Part shown: positions 34,652 to 44,929 of the stretch, piece after piece
Position numbering within the stretch: the first letter of the stretch is position 1
Layout of the letters: each line of letters starts with the position of its first letter
NCBI GenBank assembly: GCA_030017835.1
Contig: JASEGU010000010.1
Location: 1 to 45,293, forward strand
Direction of reading: 5' to 3'
Length of the DNA stretch: 45,293 bases
Source: Actinomycetota bacterium
GTDB taxonomy: Bacteria; Actinomycetota; Aquicultoria; UBA3085; Oleimmundimicrobiaceae
The notes under the pieces: model-generated
What the model was told of the DNA's origin: nothing
Databases searched by the model: none
Seen by the model: the letters and a program-made list of their open reading frames with translations, nothing else
Program-made: the position numbers and the translations under genes

Positions 34652-35698
34652 TCAATCCCAGGCATTATCCTTTAATTCTTGAACCCTGCCCTCAAGCCCC
34701 GAAGTTATCTTGACGCTTCCATCAGATAGGACCAAGATGCCCTCGATCTGGTCGTCACTTTCCAAAAACTCCAAGCCTTTCTCGTTGCCCATGACAAATA
34801 CGGCCGTCGAGAGAGCATCGGCCTCGGCGGCCGTAATCTCTCCGATGACGCTTGCGCTCATCAGGCCCTCGGCCGGCATCCCGGTCTTGGGATCCAGGAT
34901 GTGGTGGAGGCGGATGCCATCCTCTTCAAAGTAGCGCTGATAATCTCCCGAGGTGCTTAAGGCAAGTCCGTCCAGAGAAAGGACGCCGACAAGGGAGCCG
35001 TCTCCGGCAAAACGGGGATTTTGGATACCGACCTTCCAGGGCTTCCCATCGGCCTTGACCCCGATGACCTTGGTCGTGCTGCCCATGGTCAAAAGGGCGC
35101 TCTCGATTCCGTTATCTCTTAATATATCGGCCGCCCGGTCCAAGGCGTAGCCCTTGGCCACGCCCCCGAGATCTATCTTAGCTCCCTCGGCTTTCAGTCT
35201 TACGGCCCGTTTATCCTCGTCCAACTCGATCCCTTCATAGCCGACGAGGGCTACTGCGGCCGCAAGCTCGCTAGGGTCGGCTCGTCTTTTTTCGACAAAG
35301 TCCCAGAGATGTTCAATGCTTCCAACCGTCGGATCAAAGGCGCCAAGGCTCTTCCTTGAGACGTCCAAGCTCAAAGAGATCAGCTCAAAGGTGTCAAAAG
35401 AGACGCGGACGAATCTTTGGCCGCTGACTTCGTTGATGGCCGCAACTTCGCTCTCTTTGGAGTAGAAGCTCATCAGCTCATCCAGCCTCTTTATCTCGGC
35501 AAAAGCCGCGCCCACCCCCTCCTCAACCATCTCCTTGTCGCTTCCGAATGCCTTGATGGTTACGAAGGTGTCCATGAGGACTTCCGTCTTCTCATAGGGG
35601 ACGCTTTCATAGACGCCCTTTTTAGCAAAGAGGGCTAAGCCTATCAGCAAGACTATCGCTATCATTACCGCGCTTTGTGTTATTGTTTTTCTCTTCAT
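34652..35698 (-). CDS. apbE: FAD:protein FMN transferase (ApbE)
   Basis: ApbE attaches FMN covalently to a threonine of target proteins outside the cytoplasm, such as RnfG/NqrC-type subunits. The 348-residue protein has an N-terminal membrane anchor (about residues 7-25) without a lipobox Cys. It is followed by VLMDTFVTIKAFG, ELMSFYSKESEVAAIN, AFDPTVGSIEHLW, the metal and FAD site KIDLGGVAKGYALDRA, and ALSTAVFVMG near the end. No flavin-accepting partner (Rnf, Nqr or NosR) is present in this window. It has its own candidate promoter, divergent from the next operon. Confidence 0.93.
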   Translation of the reverse strand: MKRKTITQSAVMIAIVLLIGLALFAKKGVYESVPYEKTEVLMDTFVTIKAFGSDKEMVEEGVGAAFAEIKRLDELMSFYSKESEVAAINEVSGQRFVRVSFDTFELISLSLDVSRKSLGAFDPTVGSIEHLWDFVEKRRADPSELAAAVALVGYEGIELDEDKRAVRLKAEGAKIDLGGVAKGYALDRAADILRDNGIESALLTMGSTTKVIGVKADGKPWKVGIQNPRFAGDGSLVGVLSLDGLALSTSGDYQRYFEEDGIRLHHILDPKTGMPAEGLMSASVIGEITAAEADALSTAVFVMGNEKGLEFLESDDQIEGILVLSDGSVKITSGLEGRVQELKDNAWD

Positions 35699-35757: not shown

Positions 35758-35787
35758 TTGCCCGTACATGAAAGAAGGGGTTATAAT
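35758..35787 (+). promoter_or_regulatory. Candidate promoter for the dehydratase/activase operon
   Basis: TTGCCC (35758-35763) and a perfect TATAAT (35782-35787) are 18 bases apart. The -10 ends 30 bases before the first ATG of the three-gene operon. Confidence 0.55.
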
Positions 35788-35817
35788 CTAATCTCTACCG
35801 AAAGGGTTTGATGCAGA

Positions 35818-36774
35818 ATGAAGATAGGCATTCCACAAGCCCTGCTCTACTACAAATACTCTCCTCTGTGGGACGGGTTCTTCTCTGGGCTCGGGGTAGA
35901 GGTCGTCTTATCCGGCAAGACCGATAAATCCATCTTGAATCTGGGAGTAAAAGCGGCCGAGAACGAGGCCTGCCTGCCGCTTAAGGTCTTCTACGGGCAC
36001 GTCTTAAGCTTAAAAGACAAGGTGGACGGCATATTCATCCCCAGGGTTGTCAGCATCGAAAAGGATGCCTACACCTGCCCCAAATTTTTGGGGCTGCCCG
36101 ATATGATAAGCGCTTTGGACGATGATCTCCCCCAAATAATCTCCTGCACCATAGATCGCAAGCTCGGCCTAAGGGGGGTCGTCTCATCCATCTTTGAGCT
36201 CGGCCGCTACTTCACCGATGATGTAGTAAAGATCGGACTCGCCGTCCACAAAGGTTTTAAGTCTCTAAGATCACCCAAGCCCTCTCTCGCTCATCATAAT
36301 CCCTTGATTAGAGAGGGGCGCCTTTGCGGTCTGAAGGAAGGGCTAAAGATCGGTCTTCTCGGTCATCCCTACAACGTGTTCGACCCCTTCATCAACATGA
36401 ATATCTTGGATAGATTGGTTGGATCCAAAGTCGAGGTCGTGACGATCGAGACGAACTCGGTCAAGTCGAATATTCGCAAGATCTTGCCGGTCGAAAAGGA
36501 GCTCTTCTGGACGTATGAAAAGGAAGTCGTCTCGGCGGCTTTGGACTGGATCGATGCCGGCTTAGTCGATGGCATAGTCTACCTCCTCTCCTTCGCTTGC
36601 GGGCCTGACTCTCTGGTCCAGATGATAATCGAAGATGAGGCCAAAAAACGGGGGGGCAATATCCCCATCATGTCCATCGTCATAGATGAGCACAGCGGAT
36701 CGGCCGGCATATTGACCCGGCTGGAGGCTTTTCTCGATATGATAGAGCGAAAGAAGGCGGCCGAGGCGATATGA
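35818..36774 (+). CDS. 2-hydroxyacyl-CoA dehydratase-like protein (DUF2229 type), first copy
   Basis: This 318-residue protein resembles the DUF2229/acyl-CoA dehydratase activase-related family. The start is MKIGIPQALLYYKYSPLWDGFF. Three Cys sit at conserved places: NEACLPLKVFYGH, DAYTCPKFLG and SFACGPDSLV, possible [4Fe-4S] ligands as in HgdA/HgdB-type subunits. The ending is SIVIDEHSGSAGILTRLEAFLDM. It is a clear paralogue of the next gene, whose first ATGA overlaps its stop. In many bacteria these parts are fused in one protein of about 1400 residues. The substrate is unknown, and no CoA-transferase or acyl-CoA gene is nearby. Confidence 0.85.
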   Translation: MKIGIPQALLYYKYSPLWDGFFSGLGVEVVLSGKTDKSILNLGVKAAENEACLPLKVFYGHVLSLKDKVDGIFIPRVVSIEKDAYTCPKFLGLPDMISALDDDLPQIISCTIDRKLGLRGVVSSIFELGRYFTDDVVKIGLAVHKGFKSLRSPKPSLAHHNPLIREGRLCGLKEGLKIGLLGHPYNVFDPFINMNILDRLVGSKVEVVTIETNSVKSNIRKILPVEKELFWTYEKEVVSAALDWIDAGLVDGIVYLLSFACGPDSLVQMIIEDEAKKRGGNIPIMSIVIDEHSGSAGILTRLEAFLDMIERKKAAEAI

Positions 36775-37859
36775 AGCTGACCTTCCCTCATCTTGGCAAC
36801 TTAGACATTATCCTTAGCGACCTCTTCACCAGGCTCGGGGTTGAGGTGGTCGTCCCACCGAAGACCTCGCTTAGGACGATCAACCTTGGGGTCAAGCATT
36901 CGCCCGAATTCGCCTGCTTTCCGCTGAAGGTTACAGTGGGCAACCTGATAGAGGGCTTGGAGGCAGGGGCCAACCTTGCGGTCATGGCCGGCGGGATCGG
37001 CCCCTGCCGGTTCGGTCTATATGCCGAAGTCCAAAGGAGGATGCTCGAATCTTTGGGCAAGGACTTCGAAATGGTGGTCATGAAGCCACTTAGGGTCAGC
37101 TATGGCGATTTCCTTGCAGCCTGCGCTAAGCTCGTCCCTAAGAGATCGTTCTTAGAGATCGCCCACCAAGTTAAGATCGCCTGGGCTAAGGCGACGGTCA
37201 TGGATGAGCTGGAGTGCGAAGTCTTGAAGATGAGATGCTTTGAAAGGTTCTCGGGCGCGACGGATCTTGCCCATTTTAAGGCCGTCCAACTGATAAGGAA
37301 GGCAAATTCCGGAACCGAGCTTGAGACGCTCAGAAAAGAGGCGCTGAGGCTACTTAGCTTGGTCGAAAAAGAAGAGACCGAGGGCTTTTTGAAGATAGGT
37401 CTGGTCGGCGAGTTCTACGTCGTCTTGGAGCCCTTCGTCAACTTCGACATCGAAAAGACCCTCGGCCAGAAAGGCATATACGTGGAGAGATCGGTCTATC
37501 TCACCGATTGGCTGGATCCCTTAAAAAGGAACCGGATCCTTGGGACCAGCCGAAGCGAGTTAGCCCATCTGGCACAGCCATACCTCTCCCACTTCGTTGG
37601 CGGGGAGGGTCAGTCGACCGTGGGCCACGTGGTCAAATTTGCCAAAGAGGGTTTTGATGGGGTCATCCAACTTCTCCCCTTCACCTGCATGCCGGAGATA
37701 ATAGCAAAGAGCGTGCTTGGCAAGGTGGTCAGAGAGATGGATATGCCCGTCTTAACATTGAGCATAGATGAACAGACGGGCCGGGCTGGGATCATGACCA
37801 GACTGGAAGCCTTCACCGATCTTCTGAAGAGCAGGAGACTTGAGAGGAGGGCTGTATGA
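36771..37859 (+). CDS. 2-hydroxyacyl-CoA dehydratase-like protein, second copy
   Basis: This 362-residue paralogue of the preceding protein begins MKLTFPHLGNLDIILSDLF. It keeps the three Cys positions in FACFPLKVTVGNL, GIGPCRFGLY and LPFTCMPEI, and the same ending, LSIDEQTGRAGIMTRLEAF. The equivalent layout in both proteins suggests a heterodimer like the A and B subunits of 2-hydroxyglutaryl-CoA dehydratase, each with one [4Fe-4S] cluster. It shares an ATGA overlap with the gene before and the gene after, so all three products are probably made in equal amounts. The reaction is not known. Confidence 0.85.
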   Translation: MKLTFPHLGNLDIILSDLFTRLGVEVVVPPKTSLRTINLGVKHSPEFACFPLKVTVGNLIEGLEAGANLAVMAGGIGPCRFGLYAEVQRRMLESLGKDFEMVVMKPLRVSYGDFLAACAKLVPKRSFLEIAHQVKIAWAKATVMDELECEVLKMRCFERFSGATDLAHFKAVQLIRKANSGTELETLRKEALRLLSLVEKEETEGFLKIGLVGEFYVVLEPFVNFDIEKTLGQKGIYVERSVYLTDWLDPLKRNRILGTSRSELAHLAQPYLSHFVGGEGQSTVGHVVKFAKEGFDGVIQLLPFTCMPEIIAKSVLGKVVREMDMPVLTLSIDEQTGRAGIMTRLEAFTDLLKSRRLERRAV

Positions 37860-38851
37860 TGGTCGGCTATCTTGGGGTCGATGTCGGCTCGGTCAGCACC
37901 AACCTGGTTGTCATGGACGGCAAGGAGGAGATGATCGCCTACATATATCGCAGGACGATGGGCGACCCGATCTCAGCCGTCCAGAGCGGTCTGGTCGAAT
38001 TGGAGAGGCTCCTTCCGCCCGGTCTTAGGATCGAAGCGGCCGGAACGACCGGGAGCGCCCGGGCCTTAAGCGGGGTGATAGTCGGAGCCGACGTAGTCAA
38101 GAACGAGATAACCGCCCACGCGGTCGCGGCCTTAAAGATCATCCCGGATGCCAGGACGGTTCTGGAGATAGGCGGTCAGGACTCCAAGATAATCATTCTG
38201 CGCGGCGGCATCGTGGTCGATTTCGCCATGAACACCATTTGCGCGGCCGGAACCGGCTCATTTCTCGATCATCAGGCGGGGCGGATTGGCATCGATATCG
38301 AGGATTTCGGCGATTACGCCCTCCGCTCCAAAACCCCCGCTCAGATTGCCGGGCGCTGCACGGTCTTTGCCGAATCGGATATGATCCATAAGCAGCAGGT
38401 TGGATACCACATCGAGGATATCATCTATGGATTATGCAAATCTCTGGTCAGGAACTATCTCAATAACGTAGCCAAAGGCAAGGAGATAGCCTCGCCGATA
38501 ATTTTTCAGGGTGGGGTGGCCGCAAATCTTGGAATCAAGAAGGCCTTCGAAGAGGAGCTCGAAGCGGAGGTGATAATTCCCAAATACCACAACGTCATGG
38601 GGGCGATCGGGGCGGCACTTCTGGCCAAATCGGCGGCGGAAAAAGAGGGTTTTAAAGGGGAATTTAGGGGCTTTTCGGCCGCCAAGATGGAGTTCAAGAC
38701 GGTGAGTTTCAATTGCAACGGCTGCTCTAACGGCTGCGAGATAGTCAAGATCTCTAAAGGGGCTGAGACTTTAGCCTGCTGGGGCGGCCGGTGCGGTAAA
38801 TGGGAAGTCCAAAATGACCGGCCGCCCCAGGCAGTCACACTAACTACCTGA
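37856..38851 (+). CDS. BadF/BcrA-family ATPase, acyl-CoA dehydratase activase with Cys-rich tail
   Basis: This 331-residue ASKHA ATPase is the kind that drives single electrons into a dehydratase or reductase by ATP hydrolysis. The phosphate loops are YLGVDVGSVSTNLVVMD and EIGGQDSKIII. The cluster-binding Cys residues lie in TICAAGTGSFLDHQ and GRCTVFAESDMIH, the two-Cys pattern of HgdC-type activators, and the adenosine part is FQGGVAANLGIKKAF. The last 40 residues add FNCNGCSNGCEI and CWGGRCGKWE, an extra Cys-rich module that HgdC lacks but large fused activases have. It shares its ATGA with the preceding gene. Confidence 0.9.
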   Translation: MMVGYLGVDVGSVSTNLVVMDGKEEMIAYIYRRTMGDPISAVQSGLVELERLLPPGLRIEAAGTTGSARALSGVIVGADVVKNEITAHAVAALKIIPDARTVLEIGGQDSKIIILRGGIVVDFAMNTICAAGTGSFLDHQAGRIGIDIEDFGDYALRSKTPAQIAGRCTVFAESDMIHKQQVGYHIEDIIYGLCKSLVRNYLNNVAKGKEIASPIIFQGGVAANLGIKKAFEEELEAEVIIPKYHNVMGAIGAALLAKSAAEKEGFKGEFRGFSAAKMEFKTVSFNCNGCSNGCEIVKISKGAETLACWGGRCGKWEVQNDRPPQAVTLTT

Positions 38852-38854
38852 TAG

Positions 38855-39370
38855 TTACTTAGTCGATATCGTTATCGTGATGTTGTTTCCTTCGGCTTCT
38901 TCCACAGTATCCTCGCCCAAGACGACCCCGGCCATTCTACTCCCCTTGACCGCCGAATAGGTAATGATCTTGCCCTCGCCGGTATCGGCAGTGAAGGTGC
39001 TTTCGATCTTCCAGCCATTGGCCACGAGCTCTTTGTCGTAGAAGCTCTTCATTTGATCGATGGAGTCGTTTGTTAACAAGACGGCCGCAACGGTCTCCAA
39101 GTTCTCCTCGCCGGAGATGTTGATGTTGCCGTAAGGGGTCGCCCCCGGATATATCGGCATATCATCCGGCCAATTGGCCGGAAGCTCGGTTCCGGCTCCA
39201 AACTCGCCGGTGCCCTGATCGGAGGTTACGGTCACCTTGTCTCCGCCCAAGCCGGTGCTCACATCGATAGCGCCGTCCTCTGTCTGGATGGTCCTCTTGG
39301 TGCAACCGGTTAAGGTTAGGATTGTCGTAATAAGGATGAGCGTCAAAAATAAAGCGGTAAACCTCTTCAT
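38855..39370 (-). CDS. Putative secreted lipoprotein
   Basis: This is a 171-residue protein with a signal peptide and lipobox LTLTGC (lipid-attached Cys near residue 22), so it is anchored outside the membrane. The mature part contains a Thr/Gly-rich start, the segment PANWPDDMPIYPGATPYG, and a compact domain with SFYDKELVANGWKIESTF. I do not recognise a named family, though the segment 'WPxDxPxYPGA' followed by such a domain occurs in lipoproteins of unknown function. The start is ATG 39370, placed after a perfect AAGGAGGTGAT. It converges on the activase operon, with the two stops four bases apart. Confidence 0.8.
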   Translation of the reverse strand: MKRFTALFLTLILITTILTLTGCTKRTIQTEDGAIDVSTGLGGDKVTVTSDQGTGEFGAGTELPANWPDDMPIYPGATPYGNINISGEENLETVAAVLLTNDSIDQMKSFYDKELVANGWKIESTFTADTGEGKIITYSAVKGSRMAGVVLGEDTVEEAEGNNITITISTK

Positions 39371-39482
39371 TTTATCACCTCCTTTTATTGCTTCATTTAC
39401 TATATTTATAACATATCTGACTTGACTTTTGTTTGACTTGCCGTAAATATATGGGGAGAAACTTTGAAACAGGGAGATACAA

Positions 39483-40343
39483 GTGTTTGAAATTCTAACC
39501 AAAAGAACCATCGGACCAGCAGTTTATCACTATGATATCTCGGCCCCCAATATCGCAAGGAAGGCCAAGCCGGGACAATTCTTAATCCTTCGTATAAATG
39601 AAACCGGAGAGCGGATTCCCTTGACCATCTGCGACTATGATGGCTCAAAGGGAACCGTTTCGATAATGTTTCAGGCCATCGGCAAGACGACCAAGGAACT
39701 GGCTTATATGGAGGCGGGAGATAGTCTTTCCGATATGGTCGGCCCCTTGGGGAGGCCTTCCGAGATAGAGAGGCTTGGTACGGTCGTCTGCGTGGCCGGC
39801 GGAGTCGGGGCGGCCGTCATTTTGCCGATAGCCAAGGCATTGAAAGCGAAGGGAAATGAGATAATCACCATTTTGGGTGCGAGAACGGCTGAACTGCTCG
39901 TCTTAGAGGATGAGCTCAAAGCCATCAGCGACGACTTCATCATCACCACGGACGACGGAAGCCGCGGGATCTCTGGCGTCTGTACCGATCCCTTAAGACA
40001 GCTCATCGAGAGCGGCAAGAGAGTCGATCGGGTCATCGCCATCGGCCCGGCCATCATGATGAAGTTCGTCTGCAAGACGACCGAGCCCTTCGGGGTCGAG
40101 ACCGTGGTCAGCCTGAACTCGATCATGGTCGATGGCACGGGCATGTGCGGCTCTTGCCGGGTCACCATTGGCGGTCAGACCAAGTTCTGCTGCGTCGACG
40201 GGCCCGATTTTGACGGCCACGAGGTCGATTTCGATGAGCTGATGATCAGGCAAAGGATATATCTGGACGAAGAGAAGGCCTCTTTGGAAAGGTTCGAACG
40301 GCAATGTGAAGGCGGTTGCGGCTCGAAAGGTGAACGCAAATGA
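39483..40343 (+). CDS. NfnA-like ferredoxin-NAD(P) reductase subunit
   Basis: This is a 286-residue FAD/[2Fe-2S] protein of the PyrK/ferredoxin-NADP reductase group, the small subunit of NADH-dependent reduced ferredoxin:NADP oxidoreductase (Nfn) or sulfide dehydrogenase. The FAD motif is RIPLTICDYD, the NAD loop is CVAGGVGAAVILPIAKAL, and the cluster region is GTGMCGSCRVTIGGQTKFCCVDGP. The start is GTG 39483 with AGGGAGA ahead. It shares its ATGA with the large-subunit gene. A role as the GltB-free glutamate-synthase-like pair is the alternative. Confidence 0.88.
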   Translation: MFEILTKRTIGPAVYHYDISAPNIARKAKPGQFLILRINETGERIPLTICDYDGSKGTVSIMFQAIGKTTKELAYMEAGDSLSDMVGPLGRPSEIERLGTVVCVAGGVGAAVILPIAKALKAKGNEIITILGARTAELLVLEDELKAISDDFIITTDDGSRGISGVCTDPLRQLIESGKRVDRVIAIGPAIMMKFVCKTTEPFGVETVVSLNSIMVDGTGMCGSCRVTIGGQTKFCCVDGPDFDGHEVDFDELMIRQRIYLDEEKASLERFERQCEGGCGSKGERK

Positions 40344-41725
40344 TGGCAAAAGGCGAAAGGCTATCTGCCCGGGAGCAGGATGCCAAAGAGCGGATGGACA
40401 ATTTCGATGAAGTCTCCTTGGGTTACGATGAGAAGCAGGCGAGGGCGGAAGCCGAGCGCTGCCTGCAGTGTAAAAAACCGGCCTGCGTGGGAGGATGTCC
40501 GGTCGGCATCGATATCCCGGCCTTCATAAAGCTTTTGAAGGAAGGCAATCCGGCCGCTGCCATCAAGAAGATCAAGGAGAAGAATAGTCTGCCGGCCGTC
40601 TGCGGGCGGGTCTGTCCCCAAGAGAACCAGTGCGAAAAGGAGTGTATCCTGGCCAAGAAGTCCGATCCGATAGCCATCGGTCTTCTAGAGCGGTTTGCAG
40701 CCGACTCGGAGCGGAGCCAAGATGTGGCTGCCGGTTCCAAAGTAGAGTCCAAAGGCAAGAAGGTAGCCGTGGTCGGCTCGGGCCCGGCAAGTCTGGTCAG
40801 CGCTGGAGATCTGGCCAAACTGGGCTATTCGGTCACCATCTTCGAAGCCCTCCACAAGGCGGGCGGGGTTCTGGTCTACGGTATCCCAGAATTTAGACTG
40901 CCCAAAAAAATAGTCGAAGCCGAGATCGATTACGTTAAGGGTCTTGGCGTTGAGATACGGACCAACTTTGTGATCGGAAACACTTTGACGGTCGATGACC
41001 TCTTCGAGCAGGGATATGAGGCGGTCTTTATCGGCACCGGGGCTGGCCTTCCCCACTTCTTGGGGATTGAGGGCGAGAATCTAAATGGCGTCTATTCGGC
41101 CAACGAATTTCTAACCCGGGTCAATCTGATGAAATCACACCTCTTTCCGGAGCACGATACGCCCATCAAAAGGGGGCACAAGGTGGTCGTAGTCGGTGGC
41201 GGCAACGTGGCCATGGACTCGGCAAGAACGGCCAAGCGCCTGGGGGCAAGCGAAGTTTACCTAGTCTATCGCCGAACCGAAGAGGAGATGCCGGCAAGAG
41301 CCGAGGAGGCCCACCACGCCAAAGAGGAGGGCATCATATTCAAGACGTTGACGCTGCCCAGAAAGCTGATCGGCGAAAGCGGCTGGCTCAAAGCGATCGA
41401 GTGCATAGAGACGACCCTTGGCGAGCCCGACGCGAGTGGCAGGCGCCGCCCCGTCATCAAGGAGGGCTCTAATTTTACCCTCGAGGCCGATGTGGTCATC
41501 GCAGCCGTCGGAACAGGGGCTAATCCCCTTCTGCTCAAGGCAACGCCAAAGCTTAAATTGAACCCTAAGGGATATATCGAGGCCGACGAGAAGGGCACGA
41601 CCAGCATGAAGGGGGTCTTTGCCGGCGGCGACATCATAACCGGCTCGGCAACCGTGATTCTGGCTATGGGAGCCGGCAAGCAAGCGGCCGCCTCGATCGA
41701 CGAGTATCTATCCGCCAGAGCTTAA
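40340..41725 (+). CDS. NfnB/GltA-like NADPH oxidoreductase subunit
   Basis: This is the 461-residue large subunit of an NfnAB-type enzyme, homologous to the glutamate synthase small subunit. The N-terminal two-cluster domain has CLQCKKPACVGGCPVGIDI and CGRVCPQENQCEKECI. It is followed by the FAD loop VAVVGSGPASLVSAGDLA, the NADP site VVVVGGGNVAMDSARTAKRLGA and the final FAD motif GVFAGGDIITGSATVILAMGAG. Nfn enzymes bifurcate electrons between NADH, NADPH and ferredoxin. Because no glutamate synthase large subunit is adjacent, Nfn is more likely than GltD. A good terminator follows. Confidence 0.88.
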   Translation: MMAKGERLSAREQDAKERMDNFDEVSLGYDEKQARAEAERCLQCKKPACVGGCPVGIDIPAFIKLLKEGNPAAAIKKIKEKNSLPAVCGRVCPQENQCEKECILAKKSDPIAIGLLERFAADSERSQDVAAGSKVESKGKKVAVVGSGPASLVSAGDLAKLGYSVTIFEALHKAGGVLVYGIPEFRLPKKIVEAEIDYVKGLGVEIRTNFVIGNTLTVDDLFEQGYEAVFIGTGAGLPHFLGIEGENLNGVYSANEFLTRVNLMKSHLFPEHDTPIKRGHKVVVVGGGNVAMDSARTAKRLGASEVYLVYRRTEEEMPARAEEAHHAKEEGIIFKTLTLPRKLIGESGWLKAIECIETTLGEPDASGRRRPVIKEGSNFTLEADVVIAAVGTGANPLLLKATPKLKLNPKGYIEADEKGTTSMKGVFAGGDIITGSATVILAMGAGKQAAASIDEYLSARA

Positions 41726-41818: not shown

Positions 41819-41847
41819 TTGACCGCAAACCCCCCTTATGTTAAATA
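41819..41847 (+). promoter_or_regulatory. Candidate promoter of the TusA-YedE operon
   Basis: TTGACC and TAAATA are 17 bases apart, about 45 bases before the start. It directly precedes the dyad at 41847-41874. Confidence 0.45.
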
Positions 41848-41874
41848 TATGCTTATATTGTTCATAAGTCATAT
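41847..41874. promoter_or_regulatory. AT-rich dyad before the TusA-like gene (possible operator)
   Basis: ATATGCTTAT and ATAAG-T-CATAT form a ten-base inverted repeat with one bulged T, separated by seven bases. It overlaps the end of the -10 and the expected transcript start, and ends just before AAGGAGG. The pattern resembles operator sites of ArsR/SmtB-type regulators, but I cannot assign a regulator. Confidence 0.45.
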
Positions 41875-41893
41875 TTATAAGGAGGTGATGGTC

Positions 41894-42115
41894 TTGGAAG
41901 TGGAGGTCGATGCGAGGGGCTTATCCTGTCCGCTCCCCGTCATCAGGACTAAAGAGGCGGTTGAAAAGAATCCGGACGCTGAGATTGTCGTTCTTGTCGA
42001 TAATCCGGCCGCCAAAGAGAACGTAATCAGGATGGCCGAGAAGACGGGCAGACTGGTCTCGGTCGAAAGTGATGGCCTAGAATTCCGTCTTAATCTTACA
42101 AAAGGAGTCAGTTAA
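41894..42115 (+). CDS. TusA-like sulfurtransferase
   Basis: This is a 73-residue protein with the TusA/SirA fold that carries persulfide or selenium on one Cys. The start EVEVDARGLSCPLPVIRTKEAV contains the CPxP site, followed by IVVLVDNPAAKENVIRMAE. The start is TTG 41894, eight bases after AAGGAGG; ATG 41888 is too close to that site. It shares one base with the yedE start. The genes downstream suggest it hands sulfur or selenium to or from the YedE carrier. Confidence 0.88.
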   Translation: MEVEVDARGLSCPLPVIRTKEAVEKNPDAEIVVLVDNPAAKENVIRMAEKTGRLVSVESDGLEFRLNLTKGVS

Positions 42116-43215
42116 TGAAGAAGGATAATCTCATGATTTGGTCGGCCGGCGCCGTTATCGGGTTCATTGCCGTCGCCTTGGTGCTCTTTGGTAACCCGAT
42201 AAATATGGGTTTTTGCACCGCCTGCTTCGAGCGGGATATCGCGGGCGCCCTCGGTCTTCACCGGGCGGCCCCGGTTCAATACATCCGGCCCGAGATAATC
42301 GGTATCGTATTTGGGGCGCTCTTTGCGAGTCTCATCGGCAAGGAGTTCAAGGCCGAGGGTGGTTCCTCGACGCTCACCAGGTTCATCCTTGGCATCTTTG
42401 TGATGATCGGGGCCCTTGTCTTTCTGGGCTGCCCTCTTAGGATGATGATTCGCCTTGGCGGCGGCGATCTAAACGCCCTCATCGGTCTAATCGGTTTCGT
42501 TGCCGGAGTTGCCATCGGCGTATACTTCTTGAAGAAGGGCTTCGACCTTGGCCGCACCCAGGTTCAGACCAGAATAAACGGCTTCATCCTCCCTTCAATA
42601 ATGGCCATCATGCTCCTCCTTCTCATCTTTAAGCCCATGTTCAATCCGGCGGCCGGTGGGCCCGTCTTTTTTAGCAAGGAAGGGCCGGCCGCCCAGCACG
42701 CTTCCATCATCCTCTCGATTGGCGCGGGGCTACTCGTCGGCTATCTGGCTCAAAAGAGTAGGCTCTGCATGGCCGGCGGGGTTAGGGATATAGTATTGAT
42801 TAAGGATTGGCATCTGGCCAAGGGTTCACTTGCCATATTGCTTGCCGTCTTTTTGGGCAATATCGCCGTTCAAGTTCTGGGGGTCAATGGGGTCAATGCT
42901 CCGGCCTTCAATCTTGGATTTGCCGGCCAACCCGTCGCCCATGGTGAATACCTCTGGAATTTCCTTGGCTTAGGTCTGGTCGGTTTTGCCTCGGCCCTTC
43001 TGGGCGGCTGTCCGCTGCGTCAGCTAGTCCTTTCGGGTGGCGGCAACTCCGATTCGGCCATGACCGTCCTTGGCATGATATTTGGCGCGGCCATCTCGCA
43101 CAACTTCATGCTGGCTGCTTCCCCGAGCGGCGTTCCCATCTTTGCCAAGTATGCCGTCATCATCGCCCTGCTGCTTACCGCCGTGATCGGCTTCATGAAT
43201 ATGGAGAAGGTCTAG
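42115..43215 (+). CDS. yedE: YedE-family putative selenium/sulfur membrane transporter
   Basis: This 366-residue YeeE/YedE-type membrane protein has about ten hydrophobic segments and an internal duplication. MGFCTACFERDI with FLGCPLRMMIRLGGGD in the first half match RLCMAGGVRDI with LLGGCPLRQLVLSGGG in the second. The paired Cys motifs are the thiosulfate- or selenium-handling residues of this family. Genomic association with YedF has led to its annotation as a putative selenium transporter; YeeE itself takes up thiosulfate. Its ATG shares one base with the TusA-like stop, and AAAAGGAG precedes it. Confidence 0.9.
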   Translation: MKKDNLMIWSAGAVIGFIAVALVLFGNPINMGFCTACFERDIAGALGLHRAAPVQYIRPEIIGIVFGALFASLIGKEFKAEGGSSTLTRFILGIFVMIGALVFLGCPLRMMIRLGGGDLNALIGLIGFVAGVAIGVYFLKKGFDLGRTQVQTRINGFILPSIMAIMLLLLIFKPMFNPAAGGPVFFSKEGPAAQHASIILSIGAGLLVGYLAQKSRLCMAGGVRDIVLIKDWHLAKGSLAILLAVFLGNIAVQVLGVNGVNAPAFNLGFAGQPVAHGEYLWNFLGLGLVGFASALLGGCPLRQLVLSGGGNSDSAMTVLGMIFGAAISHNFMLAASPSGVPIFAKYAVIIALLLTAVIGFMNMEKV

Positions 43216-43268
43216 AACAACTCTGTGAAGTTGAGACGGTAATGGGTTTTTAAGATTTTAAGTTTAAA

Positions 43269-43314
43269 GGGCGGCCCAAGATATGATATTTTAAGCTTAC
43301 TTCTTGGGCCGCCC
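43269..43314 (+). terminator. Long stem-loop between yedE and the yedF remnant
   Basis: GGGCGGCCCAAGA pairs perfectly with TCTTGGGCCGCCC over 13 bases with a 20-base AT-rich loop; the tail is CATTCCTTTA. It is 54 bases after the yedE stop. The weak T-run and long loop allow an attenuator or processing site as alternatives. Confidence 0.6.
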
Positions 43315-43371
43315 CATTCCTTTACCTGGCTCAGGCGAAGTCCCTTTAGTCGCTAAGGAGGAGGCTTATCC

Positions 43372-43771
43372 ATGTTTGAGATCGATGCCAGAGGTTTTTC
43401 CCGTTCCGAGCCGGTCATTTTGGTCAAGAAGGCCATAGAAGACGGAGAGGAGATTATCGAGGTCAAGGTGAGGGGAGACTTTGCCAGAGACAATGTCATC
43501 CGGATGGCCGAAAGTCTTGGCTGCTCGACCAGCCAAGAGGAGATGGAAGGCCACTTCTTGGTGAGAATAGAGGCTGGACAAGGTCGCAAAATCCGGCTCT
43601 CCCGTTCTCGATGGTCTAAAAGAGCTTGAATCTTTGGGAGCCGAGGTCCTCTCCTGTGGGACCTGTCTCGACTATTACGGTCTGAAGGAAGACCTGGTGG
43701 TGGGCAAGATATCCAACATGTATGACACCACCGAATCATTCAAGAAGGCTGAGAAGATACTATCCATTTAA
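43372..43771 (+). pseudogene. yedF: Broken selenium-metabolism gene yedF
   Basis: YedF has a TusA-like N-terminal domain and a DsrE-like C-terminal domain, about 190-200 residues in all. Here the first frame gives MFEIDARGFSRSEPVILVKKA up to about 43570. The rest of that frame is nonsense and ends at 43629. The C-terminal part continues in another frame (from 43571) with GSPVLDGLKELESLGAEVL, SCGTCLDYYGL and SNMYDTTESF to TAA 43769-43771. About 50-60 residues of the middle are absent and the joint is shifted. The usual CPEP is SRSEP, so the catalytic Cys is lost too. GAGGAGG still precedes the ATG. Confidence 0.85.
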
Positions 43772-43780
43772 GGGCTTAAG

Positions 43781-44929
43781 ATGAACATCTACTTCGATAA
43801 CGCTGCAACCTCATATCCCAAACCACAGGCCGTTTCCGCCGCCGTGGCCGACTTCTTTGAGAACATAGGGGCCAATCCGGGCCGCTCCGGCCATCGCCTC
43901 TCGGTTGAGGCGGCAAGATCGATATATCTTGCCAAAGAGGCCATGGCCACTATCCTTGGGGTCACCGATCCTTTGCGGATCATCTTCACCCATAATGCCA
44001 CCTACGCGATAAATATGGCCCTCTTTGGACTCCTCAAGGCCGGCGATCACGTCATCACGAGCAGCATGGAGCACAATTCGGTCGCCCGTCCTCTGCGCCA
44101 TCTGGAGAGTTTAGGAGTCGAGCTGACCATAATACCGGCCGATCCCAAAACCTCCCTCATCGATCCGGCCGACTTCAAGGCGGCCTTAAGGCCGAGCACC
44201 AAGCTGATATCGCTAGTCCACGCCTCCAACGTGACCGGGGCCGTCATGGACATCGAAGGCGTCGGAGAGATAGCGAGTGAGGCTGGCGCAATCTTTATGG
44301 TCGATGCAGCTCAGACTGCCGGAGTGATAGAAATAGACGTAGATAAGATGAAGATAGATATCCTCGCCTTCACCGGCCATAAATCGCTCTTTGGCCCCCA
44401 AGGAACGGGCGGTCTGTATATCGGGGAGGGGGTCGAAATCTCCCCCCTTATCTTTGGCGGGACGGGAAGCGCTTCTGAGAGCGATATTCAGCCGGATTTT
44501 CTCCCCGACTCATTGGAGAGCGGAACCCCAAATACCCATGGACTCGTTGGGCTGCTGGCCGGAGCCGAGTTTATACTGGATCAAGGGGTCGGCAAGGTAA
44601 GGGCTCACGAACTAAAACTTATTGGGATGATGGGAGAAGGTCTTGCCAAGATTGAGGGGCTGACCCAGCCGGTTAAAATAGCGGACGAGGCGCGCCTTCC
44701 CATCTTCTCCTTCAATCTAGAAGGCCTTTCGGCCTCTAAGGTCGGCTACATTTTAGATAGCGAGCACGATATCATGGTGCGAGTCGGACTCCACTGCTCT
44801 CCCTGGGCTCACTTGACCATCGGGACCCATCCGCATGGCACGGTTAGGGCCAGCCTCAGCTATTTGAACACCGAGGCCGAGGTGGAGGCGTTTTTCGACG
44901 CTCTTATCGCCATCTCAAAGAGGGGGTAA
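43781..44929 (+). CDS. Cysteine desulfurase family protein (class V aminotransferase)
   Basis: This is a 382-residue PLP enzyme that takes sulfur (or selenium from selenocysteine) as persulfide on its own Cys. The start NIYFDNAATSYPKPQAV, the cofactor Asp-Gln in MVDAAQTAGV, the PLP Lys in FTGHKSLFGPQGTGGL and the active Cys in VRVGLHCSPWAH with TVRASLSYLNT identify it. This is the 'cysteine desulfurase family' group seen near YedE/YedF and DUF3343, rather than IscS. It starts nine bases after the yedF stop, and DUF3343 follows by seven bases. Confidence 0.92.
   Translation: MNIYFDNAATSYPKPQAVSAAVADFFENIGANPGRSGHRLSVEAARSIYLAKEAMATILGVTDPLRIIFTHNATYAINMALFGLLKAGDHVITSSMEHNSVARPLRHLESLGVELTIIPADPKTSLIDPADFKAALRPSTKLISLVHASNVTGAVMDIEGVGEIASEAGAIFMVDAAQTAGVIEIDVDKMKIDILAFTGHKSLFGPQGTGGLYIGEGVEISPLIFGGTGSASESDIQPDFLPDSLESGTPNTHGLVGLLAGAEFILDQGVGKVRAHELKLIGMMGEGLAKIEGLTQPVKIADEARLPIFSFNLEGLSASKVGYILDSEHDIMVRVGLHCSPWAHLTIGTHPHGTVRASLSYLNTEAEVEAFFDALIAISKRG

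Follow-up and report, generated by a model that had tools for sequence, protein, structure and literature searches.

A split three-gene relative of the PlsA/PlsR/Ger lipid enzymes in Actinomycetota, putatively an ATP-driven glycerolipid ester reductase

Fused lipid reductases and a three-gene counterpart

The closest described systems to the genes considered here are PlsA-PlsR and Ger. PlsA-PlsR of Clostridium perfringens, like the single-gene PlsA of Enterococcus faecalis and Lactococcus cremoris, is an anaerobic plasmalogen synthase, turning the sn-1 ester into a vinyl ether. Ger of Thermotoga maritima and Desulfatibacillum alkenivorans is a glycerol ester reductase and forms alkyl ethers from glycerolipid esters. 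Both conversions have been demonstrated by expression in Escherichia coli (PMC13274423 among others), with reports of Ger activity in T. maritima and of PlsA activity in L. cremoris. Two activation and two reductase domains make up PlsA-PlsR as well as Ger (PMC12838417), Listeria has been reported as a carrier of plsA/plsR orthologues (PMC9702350), and published surveys of Ger and PlsA centre on the fused protein or mention homologues without an activation domain, the role of which is called unclear (PMC13274423). The genes described here, A, B and C, lie at 35758-38851 of a 45,293-nucleotide stretch (hereafter the window) from an Actinomycetota bacterium of the class Aquicultoria (contig JASEGU010000010.1 of assembly GCA_030017835.1). 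The family and its chemistry are already known, A-B-C being most likely a split version of this recently discovered lipid enzyme; the new part is a separate C with a cysteine tail, apparently common to several A-B pairs in some genomes, together with links to acyl carrier protein (ACP) and to PlsB. No description of a separate three-gene form was found in the literature consulted, in which Jackson 2021 and Sahonero-Canavesi 2022 are represented by the papers that cite them.

Open reading frames were called mechanically and give three head-to-tail genes on the + strand. A (35818..36774, 318 aa) is reductase subunit 1, equivalent to the Red1 domain of PlsA/Ger, B (36771..37859, 362 aa) is reductase subunit 2, equivalent to PlsR/Red2, and C (37856..38851, 331 aa) is a BadF/HgdC-type ATPase, the activase. 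The ATGA overlaps that an earlier note, made from the sequence alone, had described as joining the three are present at both junctions. A matches PF09989 (DUF2229) at its N end (3.4e-46) and PF06050 (HGD-D) at its C end (8.6e-07), with B having the same two matches in the same places at 1.1e-11 and 2e-04. C matches TIGR00241 above its cut-off (2.4e-55) and PF01869 (4.9e-45), and its solved relatives are MbdQ, the activator of 2-hydroxyisocaproyl-CoA dehydratase, HgdC and DCCP-R. Single-sequence phmmer searches of A and of B against the PDB gave matches too weak for use, and the labels of the split proteins in RefSeq are limited to 'acyl-CoA dehydratase activase(-related)' and '2-hydroxyacyl-CoA dehydratase'.

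The profiles of A, B and C also match fused proteins of ~1000-1560 aa with the domain order C-C-tail-A-B, which are found in several Actinomycetota, Listeria, Acetoanaerobium, Haliovirga and others. The Fusobacterium protein has the order C-C-A and lacks an in-frame B, as would be the case for a plsA-plsR pair. A control search for DUF2229 at E<=1e-10 in 14 genomes gave matches only in T. maritima and Lactococcus lactis, which fits the Ger of the former and the PlsA of L. cremoris. The homology runs domain by domain, through activation, Red1/DUF2229 and Red2/PlsR, with the six reductase cysteines in common and the activase cysteine tail present in most of the fused relatives examined; judged by sequence, A, B and C correspond to the domains of fused PlsA/PlsR/Ger-type proteins, taken apart into single genes. 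The word uncharacterised, which the earlier note had put forward as a possibility, is not supported: the same parts in fused form are PlsA(-PlsR)/Ger, which take a glycerolipid ester to a vinyl or alkyl ether. Unlike PlsA-PlsR, A-B-C consists of three proteins, has one activase domain instead of two and falls in a separate clade, with 21-35% identity to the Listeria orthologue. Ger shares the DUF2229 family, but is one polypeptide with demonstrated alkyl-ether formation, and has two activation domains where A-B-C probably has a C homodimer. The likeness to Ger and to C. perfringens PlsA is drawn from their domain descriptions, the reference for the identity comparison being the Listeria fused protein.

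In a quick tree search (no bootstrap, supports from the Shimodaira-Hasegawa-like approximate likelihood ratio test, SH-aLRT) the A and B sequences separate into sister clades, each with a support of 100. Both clades hold split and fused forms, therefore the duplication predates the difference between split and fused, and on this sequence evidence A and B are ancient paralogues. The split forms lie outside the fused PlsA/Ger clade (SH-aLRT 99 in A, 100 in B), which makes them a separate branch of the wider family and neither a broken PlsA nor PlsA/Ger proper.

The reading that we lean towards, with moderate confidence, is that A-B-C belongs, in split form, to the PlsA/PlsR/Ger branch of the family of radical enzymes that contains the benzoyl-CoA reductases (BCR) and 2-hydroxyacyl-CoA dehydratases (HAD), and is a putative reductase of glycerolipid esters (or of acyl-ACP) that draws on ATP and reduced ferredoxin. 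A number of points weigh against it. The branching just described is one. Another is low identity, with A, B and C being 30%, 21% and 35% identical to the fused protein of Listeria, and the split set differs from the fused type at positions including K89, T300 and E303. Several genomes of the phylum contain fused and split forms together, so the two may do different things, no lipid gene adjoins the operon in the window, and a 2026 paper still found it unclear what PlsA homologues do when they lack the activation domain (PMC13274423).

Cysteines, clusters and predicted fold

The conserved cysteines of A are Cys52 (codon at 35971), Cys87 (36076) and Cys261 (36598), which are Cys in 30/30 aligned sequences, and those of B are Cys49 (36915), Cys79 (37005) and Cys306 (37686), the first two being Cys in 31/31 and the third in 30/31, where the bottom row has a gap. 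When the set is widened to 84 sequences, 14 of them fused proteins, all three positions of A are Cys throughout (84/84, and 14/14 in the fused relatives). The positions of B are Cys in nearly all fused relatives that have sequence there, apart from Paraclostridium (Y/E/E) and rows too short to reach the position. The earlier note had regarded A and B as paralogues with three cysteine positions in common, which is borne out by the PF09989 and PF06050 matches, the sister clades and these counts; it had also named loss of the six cysteines across the family as something that would speak against its proposal, and with positions that are invariant in A and nearly so in B that test is passed.

The spacing of the cysteines is 35 and 174 residues in A and 30 and 227 in B, compared with 33 and 252 in the three-Cys kind represented by BzdO, such that the first spacing is close and the middle part is shorter. 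In BzdO the ligands of the catalytic [4Fe-4S] are Cys95, Cys128, Cys380 and a water, whereas six Cys bind the double cubane in BzdN (PMC11971306). As A and B have three Cys each with spacings like the three-Cys kind, each should bind one [4Fe-4S] and not a double cubane. The fused relative on a Paraclostridium plasmid (L078:4159-8037) is a curious case, in that the activase tail is missing and all three Cys of the B half are replaced (Y, E, E), so that its second reductase domain looks cluster-free.

Two cysteines of C, Cys129 (28/29, with one X) and Cys168 (29/29), are presumably the expected ligands of the dimer-bridging cluster in activases of the HgdC type. C has in addition a cysteine tail (38714..38794, + strand) that is probably an extra Fe-S site, with the motif CxxCxNxC...GxRC[GED]K, which all full-length C proteins and most of the fused relatives share. 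The five extra cysteines that had been noticed in this tail are all present (287, 290, 294, 308 and 313); four of them are invariant (29/29) but C308 is poorly conserved, being Cys in only 12/29 and mostly Arg in the others.

AlphaFold2 models of single chains, built from five or six sequences, have a predicted local distance difference test score (pLDDT) of 76 and a predicted template modelling score (pTM) of 0.74 for A, and 79.7 and 0.78 for B. HadC, the double-cubane cluster protein DCCP and BzdNO/MbdNO are the top structural matches of both models, and with VIA-align HadC, DCCP and BCR are the sole full-length matches, at Z 10.0-13.9 (best 13.9 for A and 13.6 for B) over a background of single-domain Rossmann-type structures that reaches at most 9.6. 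The three-domain HAD fold of the models and the dedicated BadF/HgdC-type ATPase with its two cluster Cys are features of the BCR/HAD family, and the proposal of an ATP-driven complex of that type, in which two cluster subunits are served by an activase of its own gene, is supported. The comparison with double-cubane proteins that had been suggested as a check agrees in fold and fails on the count of cysteines, three against six.

An alternative is a DCCP-like reductase of small molecules, or a reductive activator or maturation factor of another metalloenzyme. DCCP is among the best fold matches and likewise has an ATP-driven reductase partner, DCCP-R, and lone C genes of related genomes sit in a ribosomal-protein/dnaB operon, a housekeeping setting. 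However, DCCP is a homodimer with six Cys, and an [8Fe-9S] double cubane, per monomer, whereas A and B are two different subunits with three conserved Cys each, and no partner enzyme recurs apart from NfnAB, all of which makes such a role improbable.

Neighbouring genes and the likely substrate

The survey of neighbourhoods covers Actinomycetota and a few PLSDB records. A, B and C stand together in 28/29 loci of the window's class, the stretch of the 29th ending inside C. NfnAB, an electron-bifurcating NADH-dependent ferredoxin:NADP oxidoreductase, follows within 6 kb downstream of C in 23/29; in the window its small subunit NfnA is at 39483..40343 (+; PDB 5jca_S 7.8e-105, 4ylf_A 9.1e-87) and its large subunit NfnB at 40340..41725 (+; PDB 4ylf_B 1.6e-172). 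A Clp ATPase is found within 4 kb upstream in 15/29, and an ApbE-family FAD:protein FMN transferase within 1.5 kb of A in 12/29; in the window it is a divergent neighbour (34652..35698, - strand; PF02424 1.5e-85), the link of which to A-B-C is unproven. Such neighbours may in part be plain synteny, although at one locus (L052) the NfnAB pair is inverted yet still adjoins. NfnAB is probably the electron supply of A-B-C in this class; outside the class, no NfnAB pair was seen beside the operon.

The layout differs in other Actinomycetota, where many genomes hold two or three A-B pairs with no C beside them and keep a single close C homologue elsewhere, 58-71% identical where intact. Six genomes (G086, G116, G136, G049, G194 and G204) combine two or three pairs with only one close C homologue, which suggests that one activase is common to several reductases. 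The lone C often follows an apparent rpsF-ssb-rpsR-rplI-dnaB series, the names having been read by eye from the sequences. Eight lone C genes (L145, L146, L147, L149, L150, L153, L154 and L156) have the ribosomal-protein/dnaB-like setting and/or a block that resembles DUF3842-thioredoxin-thioredoxin reductase. Other arrangements also occur, with a natural A-B fusion of 757 aa in G006 (L071:7660-9933), a cluster A-B-C-B with a second B after C in G013 (L070:8166-12954), and in Monoglobus, which includes the cultured relative Monoglobus pectinilyticus, a split A-B-C operon followed by a small TSCPD-domain protein (PF12637; L077:10226-11486).

The links to lipid genes come from these relatives. 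In one A-B subclade a gene for ACP lies 0-144 bp upstream of A (7 loci), and in another the acyltransferase PlsB lies 0-13 bp downstream of B (4 loci). The position of ACP directly 5' of A could be taken to mean that the split enzyme acts on the acyl thioester of ACP, for example by radical dehydration of hydroxyacyl-ACP or by reduction of acyl-ACP, and so retains the phosphopantetheine-thioester chemistry known from HAD and BCR; the fold family does otherwise use CoA thioesters, which have the same phosphopantetheine arm as ACP. This is possible but rather unlikely, as the ACP link is limited to one subclade with another linked to PlsB, and the nearest characterised proteins act on glycerol esters.

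A catabolic acyl-CoA dehydratase or benzoyl-CoA-type reductase, like HadIBC or BzdNOPQ, is the least likely of the alternatives. It does have in its favour that the fold and the activase family are the same and that there are HGD-D matches. The likeness to HadBC and its activator HadI, the 2-hydroxyisocaproyl-CoA dehydratase, extends to a three-Cys cluster as in HadB and a separate activase, but sequence matches to HAD enzymes are limited to the C-terminal part, and no 2-hydroxyacid, CoA-transferase or other genes of such a pathway were seen in the surveyed neighbourhoods, which were clustered and read and, for part, scanned for families. The class I benzoyl-CoA reductases BzdNOPQ and MbdNOPQ are also a paralogous heterodimer with an activase, but have the six-Cys BzdN and two activase genes instead of one, and aromatic pathway genes were not seen among the neighbours of A-B-C either. 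The genome of the window itself (1.31 Mb, estimated 100% complete) contains no family III CoA-transferase, no further DUF2229, BadF or HGD-D protein and only this single activase gene, with one acyl-CoA dehydrogenase. The earlier note had seen no acyl-CoA genes nearby, had counted constant proximity to 2-hydroxyacid or benzoyl-CoA genes against itself and had supposed that the substrate might not be a CoA ester; the survey brought up no such proximity, and by analogy a substrate other than a CoA ester would agree with the characterised fused relatives. The genome does have PlsY and two PlsC-type acyltransferases, therefore ester glycerolipids are probably made.

The remaining features of the window have less to do with the enzyme. 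A promoter-like site 5' of A, TTGCCC-18-TATAAT (35758..35787, +), lies at the position from which the earlier note counts these genes, but such sites are as frequent in shuffled sequence, and a scan of the window against Rfam gave no match to a regulatory RNA. Between C and NfnA, on the opposite strand, is a predicted small lipoprotein without a Pfam match (38855-39511) that is common only to the close relatives L041, L042 and L043. Further downstream (41819-44929) are a TusA/YedF-like protein, the putative selenium transporter YedE (TIGR04112, above cut-off) and a gene of the cysteine desulfurase family (TIGR01977), likely a selenium-handling cluster, and SelD elsewhere in the genome (G000:C45:785-1705) has one TGA inside the match that may be selenocysteine. 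Although a paper lists an activase near selenium genes, YedE is near A-B-C in only 3 loci and is treated as a mere neighbour. A connection to the methanogenesis-marker complex that activates methyl-coenzyme M reductase was also rejected, as its subunits and L-clusters are unrelated, and C has only a general BadF match to TIGR03286.

A possible mechanism and its meaning for ether lipids

If A-B-C is indeed a glycerolipid reductase, the cluster types, electron path, substrate and product that we infer are as follows. Ferredoxin, perhaps reduced by NfnAB in the window's class, would pass electrons to C, which probably forms a homodimer bridged by a [4Fe-4S] cluster and may hold another cluster in its cysteine tail. 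ATP hydrolysis on the C dimer would lower the potential, sending single low-potential electrons into an A-B heterodimer with one three-Cys [4Fe-4S] per subunit. The open-site [4Fe-4S] of A-B would then reduce the acyl ester carbonyl of a glycerolipid, or that of the preceding acyl-ACP, with loss of water giving a vinyl ether and further reduction an alkyl ether. The final step from ester to ether is modelled on the scheme published for PlsA (PMC8788747).

A further idea, put forward tentatively and doubtful as it stands, is that the split family represents a distinct, early-branching route to ether lipids in bacteria, in which interchangeable A-B reductases, one tied to acyl-ACP and one tied to PlsB at the first acylation, are served by a common activase C. 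With A-B pairs tuned to separate lipid steps, the ether bond could form during the assembly of glycerolipids and not on finished phospholipids.

Studies of lipid evolution and the reading of branched tetraethers as climate proxies share the open question of which bacteria make ether and membrane-spanning lipids, and with which enzymes. Were the split set to make ether lipids, the candidate producers would come to include entire lineages of uncultured Actinomycetota as well as Clostridia such as Monoglobus, and the enzyme could be studied in separate parts.

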